Shown piece by piece: positions 826-6,177 of a stretch of 34,458 nt of DNA. The number at the start of each line of letters is the position of its first letter. Position 1 is the stretch's first letter. The translations under genes and the position numbers were made by a program. The DNA comes from Holophagae bacterium (GTDB lineage Bacteria; Acidobacteriota; Holophagae; Acanthopleuribacterales; Acanthopleuribacteraceae): NCBI GenBank assembly GCA_029263455.1, contig JAJCXM010000013.1:1-34458 (forward strand). The letters are read 5' to 3'. The notes under the pieces were generated by a model. The model was given only the letters and a program-made list of their open reading frames with translations, had not been told where the DNA came from and did not search any database.

Positions 826-866
826 TCAAGACTTTGGTCAAGACCTGGCCAAGACCGCATCAAGAC
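826..866 (+). promoter_or_regulatory. array of four TCAAGAC heptamers, about 11-bp period
   Basis: TCAAGAC occurs at 826-832 and 838-844, CCAAGAC at 849-855 and TCAAGAC at 860-866. Start-to-start spacings are 12, 11 and 11 bp, so all copies fall on nearly the same DNA face. A heptamer plus a 4-bp spacer is the geometry of OmpR/PhoB-class response-regulator sites, although the sequence itself is not a PhoB box. The array ends 125 bp before the M3 peptidase start. The same motif and spacing occur upstream of the convergent small gene at 2956-3318. Confidence 0.65.
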
Positions 867-991
867 TAAGGTGGGCGTCAGAAAATGTTTATTTCAAGGG
901 ACTTATGCTGATTGTCGGCATGCCGACTTTAAGTCGCCTCCTGTCGGGGAAGGGTTTGATATACTCCCTTGCATTGGATGAGAGGTGTGAG

Positions 992-2938
992 ATGAATCCT
1001 TTTGCTCGTTGTGGCAATGAGCCATTGCCATTTGCGTCACTGGACAGTGCCCTGGTGCCCGAAGCTGTCGAGTTAGTGCTCGAAAATGTCGCTAAGAAAC
1101 GAGCACTGATGTTGGCATCGGATGAAGACGATAAACGTTCTCGACTGCATGGATTCGACGAGATTCATGAGACGTTAACAAGTCTGCTCTCGCCTCTTTA
1201 TCTGATGGCTGAGACCCATCCTGATTCGAGTTTGCGTGAGGCCTGTCGAAATGGCGTGCAGCGGCTGATGAATTGCGCCCATGAACTGCAAATGGACGTA
1301 GAGATGTTTAATATGTTTTTGGCATATACGCATGCACCAGTAACGATGGTGCCGGTGGAAATGCGCATGGCGCAGATATTGTTAGAGTCCTTTCAGCGCA
1401 ATGGCTTGGCGCTGGACCAAGCAAGTCGTGATCAGTTATTGCTATGGAGTAATCGATTAAGCGAGTTGGAGCTGACTTTTGGGCAGCATATTTCTGAAGA
1501 TAAGTCGTCGATTCGCATAGACGAGAATGAAATGGCCGGGTTACCAGAGGATTTCCGTGCGCGGGTGCGTGAGGAAGATGGTTCGTTGCTTGTACCCTGT
1601 CATTTCGTTAACTACACCATCTGCATGAAATATGCGGAAAGTGAATCCGTACGCAAGCGCATGTATGTGGCCTACCTCAATCGCGCCAGGGAGAGCAACC
1701 TGCCCGTGCTGAAGGAAATACTTGATACGCGGGTAGAAAAGGCTAAGTTGCTGGGGTTTGAGGACTTTGCGAGCTATCAATTGGCGGACAAAATGGCGCG
1801 TAAACCAGCTGTGGTTCTTGAGTTCATGAGTGAGGTACGTTCCGCGGTTGCGGACAAGGCCGACTCTGATTATCAGGCGTTATGCGCCTTCAGCCATAAA
1901 GAGAAGATAGAACCCTGGAATCGTTTTTATGTGGCAGAGCGATTGCGGGAACAACAAACGGCCATACGAGATGAAGAGCTGAAAGCCTATTTCGGTTTAG
2001 ATCAGGTGCTTCGAGGTCTATTTCAACTGGTATTTGACTTATTCGGCGTCAATTTTCAGGCGGCTGAAGAGTTAGAAGTCTGGCATGAGGATGTTATGCC
2101 ATTCGAACTAAAGCACGACGATCGTGTTATAGGCCGCTGTTATTTGGACCTCTTCCCTCGCGACAATAAGTATTCACATGCAGCCTGTTTCGACATTCGC
2201 GGCGGCGGTGAGCGTGCTGCTGGTCGCCAATTAAGTGAATCTGCTTTGGTATGCAATTTCAGCCCTCCATCTGGTGAGCAGCCCGCCCTTTTGACACATT
2301 CAGAAGTCGAAACCTTGTTTCACGAATTTGGCCATCTCATGCATCAGCTAATGACGAAGTCATCTATTTCCATGTTTGCTGGCACCAATGTCTTGCAAGA
2401 TTTTGTGGAAGTCCCCTCTCAGCTCTTTGAACATTGGGCTTGGGATCGTACATCGTTGAAGTCGTTTGCCAAACATTGGCAAACACAGGAAACCATTAGT
2501 GACGAATTGATCGATCGCATGGTTGCCGGCCGCCACTTTGGGTCGGGGCTTCATATCCAACAGCAGCTGTTTTATGGCGCGCTTGATATGACCTACCATA
2601 CCGACGCGCAGTCAATTGGCGATCCCAGTTCAACCACACGCCGCCTGCAAGAAGCATTTACCCAATTTGACTACGTTGAGAACACGGGCTTTGAGACCTG
2701 TTTTGGTCACCTAACCGGGTACGCCGCTGGCTATTACGGGTACCTTTGGGCGCGGGTATTTGCAGACGATATGTTTTCCATGTTCGAGGAGGTAGGTGTG
2801 CGAAGTCGAGATGTCGGCACGAAACTGTGGCAGTTAGTTCTGGCTAAAGGCGGAAGTGTTGAACCCATGGATTTGATTCAAAAGTTCTTAGGTCGCAAAC
2901 CTAATCAGGCTGCATTTCGCCGTCACCTTGGGCTTTAA
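992..2938 (+). CDS. M3 family oligopeptidase (thimet/MIP-like zinc metallopeptidase)
   Basis: A soluble zinc endopeptidase of 648 residues that probably cleaves short peptides in the cytoplasm; no signal peptide is seen. The catalytic motif HEFGH is at residues 444-448, and E473 in VEVPSQ, 25 residues later, fits the third zinc ligand of the M3 family. Length and a mostly helical N-terminal half fit mitochondrial intermediate peptidase/thimet oligopeptidase relatives. I chose the ATG at 992 because AGAGG at 981-985 is a good ribosome site; an in-frame ATG at 905 would add 29 unconvincing residues. An 11-bp-phased heptamer array lies upstream, and the next gene converges 17 bp after the stop. 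The family call is strong; the exact substrate is unknown. Confidence 0.93.
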   Translation: MNPFARCGNEPLPFASLDSALVPEAVELVLENVAKKRALMLASDEDDKRSRLHGFDEIHETLTSLLSPLYLMAETHPDSSLREACRNGVQRLMNCAHELQMDVEMFNMFLAYTHAPVTMVPVEMRMAQILLESFQRNGLALDQASRDQLLLWSNRLSELELTFGQHISEDKSSIRIDENEMAGLPEDFRARVREEDGSLLVPCHFVNYTICMKYAESESVRKRMYVAYLNRARESNLPVLKEILDTRVEKAKLLGFEDFASYQLADKMARKPAVVLEFMSEVRSAVADKADSDYQALCAFSHKEKIEPWNRFYVAERLREQQTAIRDEELKAYFGLDQVLRGLFQLVFDLFGVNFQAAEELEVWHEDVMPFELKHDDRVIGRCYLDLFPRDNKYSHAACFDIRGGGERAAGRQLSESALVCNFSPPSGEQPALLTHSEVETLFHEFGHLMHQLMTKSSISMFAGTNVLQDFVEVPSQLFEHWAWDRTSLKSFAKHWQTQETISDELIDRMVAGRHFGSGLHIQQQLFYGALDMTYHTDAQSIGDPSSTTRRLQEAFTQFDYVENTGFETCFGHLTGYAAGYYGYLWARVFADDMFSMFEEVGVRSRDVGTKLWQLVLAKGGSVEPMDLIQKFLGRKPNQAAFRRHLGL

Positions 2939-2955
2939 TCCCAGGACACGATCTT

Positions 2956-3318
2956 TTAGCCCTCGACTTGGTCTGACAAGCAAAATGAACCCCAGTCGGT
3001 GCGTGTGACCAGCTGTGTCTTGTTGGCCAAATCTCGAACTACTTGATCAAGGTTGCGCCGCTCACTCGTGGGGTGATTAAGCAGCACTCGTTGGGTGATT
3101 TCATCTAGAGTCGCCTGTTTCTTTCCTTGCTGACTTAGTTCTTGCAAAGCATGCAGCACCATTTCTCGACGGGAATGACGTTGGCTGGCCGGGCCAAGCC
3201 CTGGGCTAATTCCTTGATCAAGGCAACGCAGCAAGTCTGCGCATTCTTGGACACTAGCCTCAAGTTCACACACCCAGCTACCGGCACCCACAAGTCGAAT
3301 CTTCATAATCTCAAGCAT
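2956..3318 (-). CDS. small protein with a winged-helix-like C-terminal half
   Basis: A 120-residue protein of no family I recognise. Residues ~50-115 read like a winged helix: a helix around REMVLHALQEL, a second around ATLDEITQRVL, a third around NLDQVVRDLANK, then a strand-rich end TRTDWGSFCLS that could be a wing. The N-terminal ~45 residues look like strands and one helix. A DNA-binding regulator is therefore a reasonable inference, not a proven call. Its upstream region carries seven TCAAGA-type heptamers, so it could bind its own promoter. It converges on the M3 peptidase gene, whose promoter has the same motif. Starts at 3318 and 3306 are both possible; neither has a strong ribosome site. 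Confidence 0.6.
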   Translation of the reverse strand: MLEIMKIRLVGAGSWVCELEASVQECADLLRCLDQGISPGLGPASQRHSRREMVLHALQELSQQGKKQATLDEITQRVLLNHPTSERRNLDQVVRDLANKTQLVTRTDWGSFCLSDQVEG

Positions 3319-3391
3319 ACGTCAAGATCTTGCCAAGATCAATCGCAGTGATGCTTGATATTATCTTGATACGATCTTGACACAGTCTTGA
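3311..3391 (-). promoter_or_regulatory. two opposed arrays of TCAAGA-type heptamers, exact 11-bp period
   Basis: Reading toward the small gene on the minus strand, heptamers lie at 3385-3391 (TCAAGAC), 3374-3380 and 3363-3369 (TCAAGAT), and 3352-3358 (TCAAGCA), each exactly 11 bp apart. On the plus strand a second set faces them: TCAAGCA 3311-3317, TCAAGAT 3322-3328 and CCAAGAT 3333-3339, also 11 bp apart. The innermost plus-strand copy overlaps the annotated start codon of the small gene. The arrangement suggests cooperative binding of a regulator on one DNA face, possibly autoregulation. Confidence 0.7.
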
Positions 3392-4572: not shown

Positions 4573-4998
4573 ATGTTTGCAACCTATCTCTTACCGTTAG
4601 GCGGCGGAACACTTATCGGCTTGGCGCCCTCGATGATGCTTTTGTACAACGGTCGTATCGCTGAAGTGAGCGGCATTCTTTCGGGGCTATTTGCACGCCG
4701 GCCACAGGATGGTTACTGGCGTGTTTGCTCTATTCTGGGCTTGTTAGTTGGGGGCGGCCTTTTCTTTGTCACAACGTCCTCCGCATCAAGACTTGAGGCA
4801 CCTATCCCGATGGTTATGATCGATGTTGCTGGTTTTCTTGTCGGTTACGGGTGTCGTTTGGGAAATGGATGCACAAGCGGCCAGGGCGTTTGCGGCATGG
4901 GCTGATTCTCGTTTCGTTCGTTTATGGCCATGTTGATTTTCATGGCAAGTGGAATTATGGCGGTATTTCTGACTAACTTATGCATCAAGGGTGCCTGA
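4573..4998 (+). pseudogene. YeeE/YedE sulfur-transport family protein, first half, nonsense mutation
   Basis: The frame opens at ATG 4573 and shows the membrane-protein hallmarks of this family: LLPLGGGTLIGLAPSMMLLYNGRIAEVSGILSGL split over the first segments, then GYGCRLGNGCTSGQGVCG near residue 107, the conserved cysteine region. A TGA at 4903-4905 stops it, but the same frame continues in register (FSFRSFMAMLIFMASG and on) to TGA 4996-4998, which restores the usual ~140-residue length. The stop sits where relatives have arginine, so a CGA-to-TGA change is the simple reading. The partner half begins at an ATGA overlap. The family imports thiosulfate or related sulfur species across the inner membrane. 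Confidence 0.85.
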
Positions 4999-5529: not shown

Positions 5530-6177
5530 ATGAAAATACATGAAATCGGCTGGACTAAAGAATGGGGTGGCGTACGTTTAGGTGCTGTTTTACATTTAGA
5601 TGCGGTGCCCTGCTCGTCGGCACAAATTAGGCAAGTAGTACAAGTACACGGCAACCATGTAGTTGATATTGATGACGACAGTGGCTTCCCTGAACAAGAA
5701 GCAGATGCTCTATGGACGGCTGAAACCGGCGTCGCCTTAGTCATTCGCACGGCAGATTGTGTACCTGTTCATTTAGTTGACAAGGTCGGTGTTGCGACGA
5801 TTCATGCAGGATGGCGCGGAGCTCGGGCTGGAATCCTTCAATCCGCATTACAGAGATTTGAGGTAGACGAAACGATCGCCGTCATTGGACCATGTATCTG
5901 CAAACACCATTACCAAGTGGATGAGGATTTGTACGGCGATTGGCTGGTTGAGGATCCGCATTTAGGTGGTTTTCTCGAGCCTTCTGGCGACCATCCCAGC
6001 AAACGCCAACTAGATCTGGCGGGTTTCGTTCGTCACCTGCTCATGCGTGAAGGCCTAACCAGCGACCATATTCATTCGGTAGACAAATGCACCTACAATT
6101 CCGCAGCGCTACCTTCATACCGCAGAGACAAAAGCAAAGCACGTATTTATAACTACACCATGAAATTACCGAAATAA
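5530..6177 (+). CDS. pgeF: YfiH/PgeF/LACC1 family multicopper-like purine nucleoside enzyme
   Basis: A 215-residue protein of the family once called polyphenol oxidase or laccase domain, named peptidoglycan editing factor in E. coli. LACC1 (FAMIN) and bacterial YlmD act on purine nucleosides (phosphorolysis and adenosine deamination). Metal ligands are visible: H40 in VHG, C77 in RTADC and H92 in HAGWRG; GPCIC with YQV near residue 120 and LDL further on are also typical. It is somewhat shorter than the usual 240-260 residues, lacking part of the N-terminus. Its stop is 5 bp before the adenosine deaminase start, which favours a nucleoside-catabolic role. Cytoplasmic, with no signal peptide. 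Confidence 0.9.
   Translation: MKIHEIGWTKEWGGVRLGAVLHLDAVPCSSAQIRQVVQVHGNHVVDIDDDSGFPEQEADALWTAETGVALVIRTADCVPVHLVDKVGVATIHAGWRGARAGILQSALQRFEVDETIAVIGPCICKHHYQVDEDLYGDWLVEDPHLGGFLEPSGDHPSKRQLDLAGFVRHLLMREGLTSDHIHSVDKCTYNSAALPSYRRDKSKARIYNYTMKLPK

Follow-up and report, generated by a model that had tools for sequence, protein, structure and literature searches.

Clusters of the hexamer CAAGAC before a peptidase gene and a small winged-helix gene in Acanthopleuribacteraceae, very probable control sites of a self-regulating gene switch

We examined a 34,458-nucleotide stretch of a Holophagae bacterium genome (contig JAJCXM010000013.1; here referred to as the window), in which arrays of a short repeat precede two convergent genes, one encoding an M3-family metallopeptidase and the other a small protein of 116 amino acids (aa) with a predicted winged-helix fold. 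Clusters of the hexamer within these repeats, CAAGAC, were identified before the same genes across the family Acanthopleuribacteraceae, and they very probably serve to control a small gene switch that regulates itself and was not previously described. On balance, we favour the explanation that the arrays are operators of a dedicated regulator with a two-gene regulon, and that this regulator is the small protein, which by binding them represses its own gene and controls the OpdA-like M3 peptidase. Such a switch would define a family-wide operator and a family of small winged-helix proteins that had no name before, with only two target genes as far as seen.

Before the peptidase gene, four plus-strand units were detected at positions 826–866 (TCAAGAC at 826, TCAAGAC at 838, CCAAGAC at 849 and TCAAGAC at 860, with spacings of 12, 11 and 11 bp). 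The array before the small gene has two parts: a distal one of four minus-strand units at 3352–3391 (TCAAGAC at 3391, TCAAGAT at 3380, TCAAGAT at 3369 and TCAAGCA at 3358, with spacings of 11, 11 and 11 bp), and a proximal one of three plus-strand units at 3311–3339 (TCAAGCA at 3311, TCAAGAT at 3322 and CCAAGAT at 3333, with spacings of 11 and 11 bp). A sequence scan recovered all three groups, of four, three and four units, where a preliminary description of this DNA had placed them. Two of the seven units before the small gene read TCAAGC instead of TCAAGAY.

The heptamer arrays are real and not a product of chance. Three [TC]CAAGA units at 10–12 bp were matched three times in the whole 6.25-Mb genome, all within these arrays, and the backwards control of the same scan gave 0 matches; the genome-wide search for three-unit arrays proposed in the preliminary description thus returned these arrays only. 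A looser genome scan (CAAGA at 10–12 bp) showed one further match, off-site, on contig 14. None of 2000 shuffled promoters reached the counts of the real ones, 7 CAAGA/TCTTG words for the small gene and 4 CAAGAC/GTCTTG words for the peptidase.

Conservation was examined in the window's genome (G000), its genus-mate, the metagenome-assembled genome HKST-UBA04 (G001), and genomes G002–G006 from four other genera of Acanthopleuribacteraceae (Acidobacteriota), including Sulfidibacter corallicola (G003) and Acanthopleuribacter pedis (G006). In the genus-mate the two genes are likewise convergent, and the small gene is preceded by four same-strand CAAGA units at 11, 11 and 12 bp facing three TCTTG units; when this array was aligned to that of the window, the units were kept and the spacers had diverged. 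The peptidase array of the genus-mate is shorter, comprising TCAAGAC and GCAAGAT, spaced by 11 bp, together with a TCTTG unit that faces them. CAAGAC/GTCTTG clusters were also identified before the small gene in G002–G006 and, unphased, in the orthologous peptidase promoters of G003, G005 and G006, with no close peptidase orthologue in G002 and G004. The earlier proposal that one motif stands before both genes is therefore borne out in the window, in its genus-mate and in the other genera, with the motif in 5/5 orthologous peptidase promoters and 7/7 small-gene promoters. A de novo count of hexamers in eight promoters from G002–G006, with the window and its genus-mate left out, ranked CAAGAC/GTCTTG first (25 observed versus 1.65 expected) and found it in all eight. 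The motif was neither scattered over the genome nor absent at orthologous loci, the two outcomes that the preliminary description had named as speaking against its proposal.

In G003, G005 and G006, the peptidase and the small gene, both with the motif, are 17–28 kb apart, so that proximity of the genes does not account for the motif they have in common. Between them in G003 and G006 are parA, parB, miaB, dnaE, era and rarA. The isolated two-gene unit that had been suggested is thus correct locally, but not in Sulfidibacter, Acanthopleuribacter and one more genome, at which the two genes flank the par/dnaE block. A similar restriction applies to the spacing of one helical turn, which had been regarded as the key feature: it holds in the window's genus, with 11 adjacent spacings of 11 bp and two of 12, but in the other genera (G002–G006) the test for helical phasing gave nothing significant, and the leading T was not kept either. 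The sequences compared indicate that it is the hexamer that the family conserves, and that phasing at 11 bp is confined to the genus of the window. DnaA boxes within the arrays were also considered and rejected; only one, a perfect box (TTATCCACA), was observed within the CAAGAC cluster before the small gene of G004 (L054, position 10304; contig C154).

Further targets were searched for with three-unit patterns in the seven whole genomes and with loose clusters in samples (1.2 Mb of S. corallicola and 0.4 Mb of the window's own genome). The other clusters and pattern matches were within coding sequence, with the exception of two oddities, namely a cluster without a large frame on contig C52 of G005 and a cluster near position 582 of contig C8 of G000, inside locally repeated sequence. 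As far as tested, the predicted regulon comprises two genes, the peptidase and the small gene. The uniqueness of the arrays and their conservation before both genes support one dedicated regulator with a two-gene regulon, for which no response-regulator gene is needed.

The small gene is located at 2956–3306 on the minus strand, its start having been moved by homology from the previously assigned 3318, and its product is the proposed array binder and autorepressor. No Pfam or NCBIfam family matched the protein above the cut-off. The AlphaFold model, with a mean predicted local distance difference test (pLDDT) score of 80, showed a beta-hairpin and a helix (residues 2–30) and a winged helix (residues 46–110). 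Comparison to PDB structures with VIA-align gave many winged helices at Z of about 8–10, e.g. Fur, SAMD1, linker histone H1 and MecI; since winged helices as diverse as these match it, from Fur to SAMD1 and the linker histone, the fold counts as generic. Likewise, the PDB fold search of the protein, in which the hairpin-helix module was not searched alone, returned generic winged helices only, none at E < 0.001. Residues invariant across the seven homologues are mostly in the third helix and the wing; together with the model, they place Q88, R91, D92, N95, K96 and T97 in the predicted recognition helix and R102, G106, F108 and L110 in the predicted wing, an arrangement that fits an invariant DNA word. 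Homologues were detected in 7 of the 61 relatives searched, all Acanthopleuribacteraceae and comprising all 7 family genomes, and a further search of genome contigs gave the same six genomes. Beyond the family, 396 genomes of the phylum gave one match only (E 0.001), which was not convincing.

Alignment of the window with the genus-mate revealed a candidate -10 element of the small gene, GATAAT, at 3360–3365 on the minus strand inside the third unit (CAAGATAATAT, identical in both genomes). An alternative candidate is TATGCT at 3319–3314. Most homologues have a -10-like TAnnnT 6–8 bp before the small-gene ATG and no visible ribosome site (3304–3319 in the window, and the homologue promoters); owing to these two features, the mRNA may be leaderless.

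The peptidase gene occupies 992–2938 on the plus strand. Its product belongs to family M3 (oligopeptidase A/Dcp-like), as it matches PF01432 (E 1.6e-128) and its translation has the zinc motif HEFGH (HEXXH). The start was previously assigned to 905; as the homologues begin with MNPF or MNPL, it was moved to 992. The best NCBIfam models were oligopeptidase A and Dcp, both below the cut-off (337 bits for oligopeptidase A, at which the cut-off is 927). Thus, PF01432, HEFGH and the best-matching model are common to the peptidase and oligopeptidase A (OpdA/PrlC) of family M3, whereas the partner gene and the promoter elements here are specific to Acanthopleuribacteraceae. A candidate -10 element, TATACT, is placed at 960–965 on the plus strand by alignment of five promoters, at which the relatives' counterpart reads TTTGnTATACT or TTTGnTACAAT. 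A consensus promoter scan of the window gave nothing above shuffles.

From the sequence and the predicted structure, the array binder is most likely the product of the small gene, the 116-aa winged-helix protein. An apparent conserved operator before its own gene, as for an autoregulated transcription factor, was present in 7/7 genomes. One CAAGAC(T) unit would take one winged-helix domain, and the N-terminal hairpin-helix module would join adjacent subunits, which would align the bound copies on the array. Before the small gene, the array would cover the promoter and end a few bases from the start codon, and binding would shut off synthesis in a negative feedback; autorepression is expected because the array overlies the promoter near the start codon. 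The peptidase array, on the other hand, is about 100–145 bp before the likely start of transcription, on the far side of a 14-bp palindrome, GTCGGCATGCCGAC. Because of this location, the array-bound protein would act there from a distance, perhaps as an activator or together with a second ParB (ParB2). We infer the identity of the binder, the direction of control at the two promoters, the formation of oligomers and any role of ParB2, and we can only speculate that the sensed input is a peptide-related signal, which would match the peptidase.

In the genus whose arrays are phased, the hairpin-helix and the winged helix are joined by a linker of about a dozen residues. In the S. corallicola protein, around 60 linker residues were modelled with low confidence (pLDDT near 50) and are taken as disordered, and the arrays there are unphased. 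A short linker would demand a fixed spacing of neighbouring subunits, while a long one would not; linker length thus appears to go with operator spacing. As the same hexamer is phased with a short linker in one genus and unphased in four others, with a long linker in S. corallicola, the family offers a natural test of the joint evolution of linker length and operator spacing.

Several points weigh against the small protein as the dedicated regulator of the two genes. Another, unlinked protein could be the CAAGAC binder, and the predicted winged-helix fold, being generic, names no binder. The correlation of linker and spacing comes from one evolutionary event, the protein being present in no more than seven genomes. 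The scans would have overlooked further targets with one or two units, as loose clusters were covered in samples only, and the promoters of G003 have just three CAAGA/TCTTG words each, which is weak taken alone.

The palindrome GTCGGCATGCCGAC, at 914–927 in the peptidase promoter, is a good candidate for the parS (centromere) of the second ParB, and we refer to it as the candidate parS2. It was found in one to seven copies in 6/7 family genomes, with none in G002, and in the peptidase promoter of 5/5 genomes with an orthologue, although with one changed core base in G003. In 4/5 of the aligned peptidase promoters, it is followed after 30–36 bp by TTTGnTATACT or TTTGnTACAAT. In G000, GTCGGCATGCCGAC is 130 bp upstream of parA2 (contig C34, copies at 2537 and 20542); four copies at 64 bp were identified in G005 (C29, 503862–504067), and three each near parAB2 in G003 (C1, 8878977–8881855) and G006 (C29, 12495–12616). 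The ParAB pair beside these copies is distinct from the ParB near dnaA, which has canonical GTTYCACGTGRAAC parS sites. It is this clustering of a rare palindrome next to a separate parAB, as in ParB/parS systems, that makes GTCGGCATGCCGAC a candidate parS2. Its sequence was not found in the literature searched.

ParABS systems are normally near origins. In S. corallicola (C1), however, the GTCGGCATGCCGAC/ParAB2 locus is at the plus-to-minus skew switch (8.77–8.89 Mb) and dnaA at a minus-to-plus one, and in G005 the plus-to-minus switch is at about 420–440 kb of contig 29, within 45–110 kb of the main parS2 group. By GC skew, the second ParAB locus is therefore of the terminus type in two genera. 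GTCGGCATGCCGAC was also considered as a marker of the main origin and rejected, given the canonical parS and another ParB beside dnaA and the terminus-type sign of the skew. The sampled GC skew of the S. corallicola chromosome showed two cycles, with minus-to-plus switches near 4.93 Mb (dnaA) and at 11.7–0.3 Mb, and plus-to-minus switches near 2.3 and 8.8 Mb; this points to a fusion of two replicons or, alternatively, to a large inversion or a misassembly. The question raised is why a peptidase promoter close to a skew switch of the terminus type retains a centromere-like site of the second ParAB. It is conceivable, but in our judgement improbable, that the CAAGAC-binding protein and the terminus-located ParAB2-parS2 are one device, in which ParB2 loaded at the promoter parS2 interacts with the array-bound protein. 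If true, this would tie peptidase expression or terminus organisation to chromosome segregation.

A more serious competitor, though still one we doubt, is a binder encoded elsewhere, e.g. a CarH/LitR-like MerR protein or an OmpR/PhoB-type response regulator, with the small gene as a target and not the regulator. Both types of regulators use 11-bp direct repeats, and no sensor domain is recognisable in the small protein by profile search or predicted structure. The sites of CarH proteins consist of three or four 11-bp direct repeats in tandem, nnnnTnnACAn (PMC9304148). In this register the window unit TCAAGA reads TnnAGA, but the ACA of the CarH unit is missing from all eleven units, and the leading T and the 11-bp phasing are lost in other genera. 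A global regulator is also expected to have more targets, yet no other phased three-unit [TC]CAAGA array was found in the genome, and no gene for a regulator of either class was found beside the pair (the search for CarH genes did not extend to other loci). CarH/LitR proteins are B12-dependent members of the MerR family, and the profile search of the small protein gave no match to a B12-binding domain. The arrays thus share with CarH/LitR operators the 11-bp tandem geometry, in the window's genus only, and the overlap with a promoter, but differ in the unit, which is CAAGAC and not TnnACA, in the absence of phasing in related genera and in the two-gene regulon. OmpR/PhoB regulators recognise a heptamer plus a 4-bp spacer, as direct repeats at one helical turn; this geometry is common to the window arrays, as is a winged-helix binding domain, predicted here. 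Nevertheless, membership of the small protein in the OmpR/PhoB group, to which this geometry had been compared, is not supported: no receiver domain with a phospho-acceptor Asp was matched in it, the N-terminus being a 30-residue hairpin-helix, and neither a response-regulator or kinase gene beside it nor a phosphorylation input is evident. Its predicted winged helix gave no OmpR-type Pfam match, and the nearest folds are generic winged helices.

A further reading, which we regard as quite unlikely, is that the repeats are iteron-like sites or sites of chromosome architecture, left over from or still active in the replication/partition region of a second replicon; the winged-helix protein would then be a bridging or initiator-like factor, and ParAB2/parS2 its partition system. 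The family does have a second ParAB besides the one near dnaA, the candidate parS2 is in the peptidase promoter, and the small gene of G002 adjoins parAB2. Moreover, the Vibrio chromosome II protein RctB recognises 11-/12-mers and is under autorepression, and ParB2 that spreads from a parS2 close by has an effect on it (PMC3688505). The two systems have in common short repeats, autorepression of a gene (proposed here) and a centromere site near a binding site (a candidate here). At Vibrio oriII, ParB spreading can interfere with the repeat-binding protein next to it, which is only an analogy here. However, the protein is different, there is no sign of replication initiation, and the locus is at a plus-to-minus GC-skew switch, of the terminus and not the origin type. 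Conserved clusters were seen only at the two gene starts, and the small gene has a chromosomal location, with dnaE, era and miaB among the core genes around it. Its product has one winged helix, with no ATPase or second DNA-binding domain. It gave no Pfam initiator match, but the winged helix is a fold used by initiators too. Finally, we give almost no credence to repeats that arose by chance or low-complexity expansion and have no function. The units are short, they cover two genes only and their exact spacing is limited to one genus, but the hexamer was enriched independently, de novo, in four other genera and the units were kept amid diverged spacers; a chance origin is already refuted unless CAAGAC is common to all twelve promoters for some other reason.

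A PgeF/YfiH-like gene was observed near the small gene in the window (5530–6177), in G001 (L046, 1041–1700) and in A. pedis (L049, 345–1049), and it is divergent from the small gene in the latter two. A short, apparently truncated frame at 4573–4905 of the window, possibly a broken transporter gene, ends in GCTSGQGVCGMG, which we take to be a YeeE/YedE-like signature.
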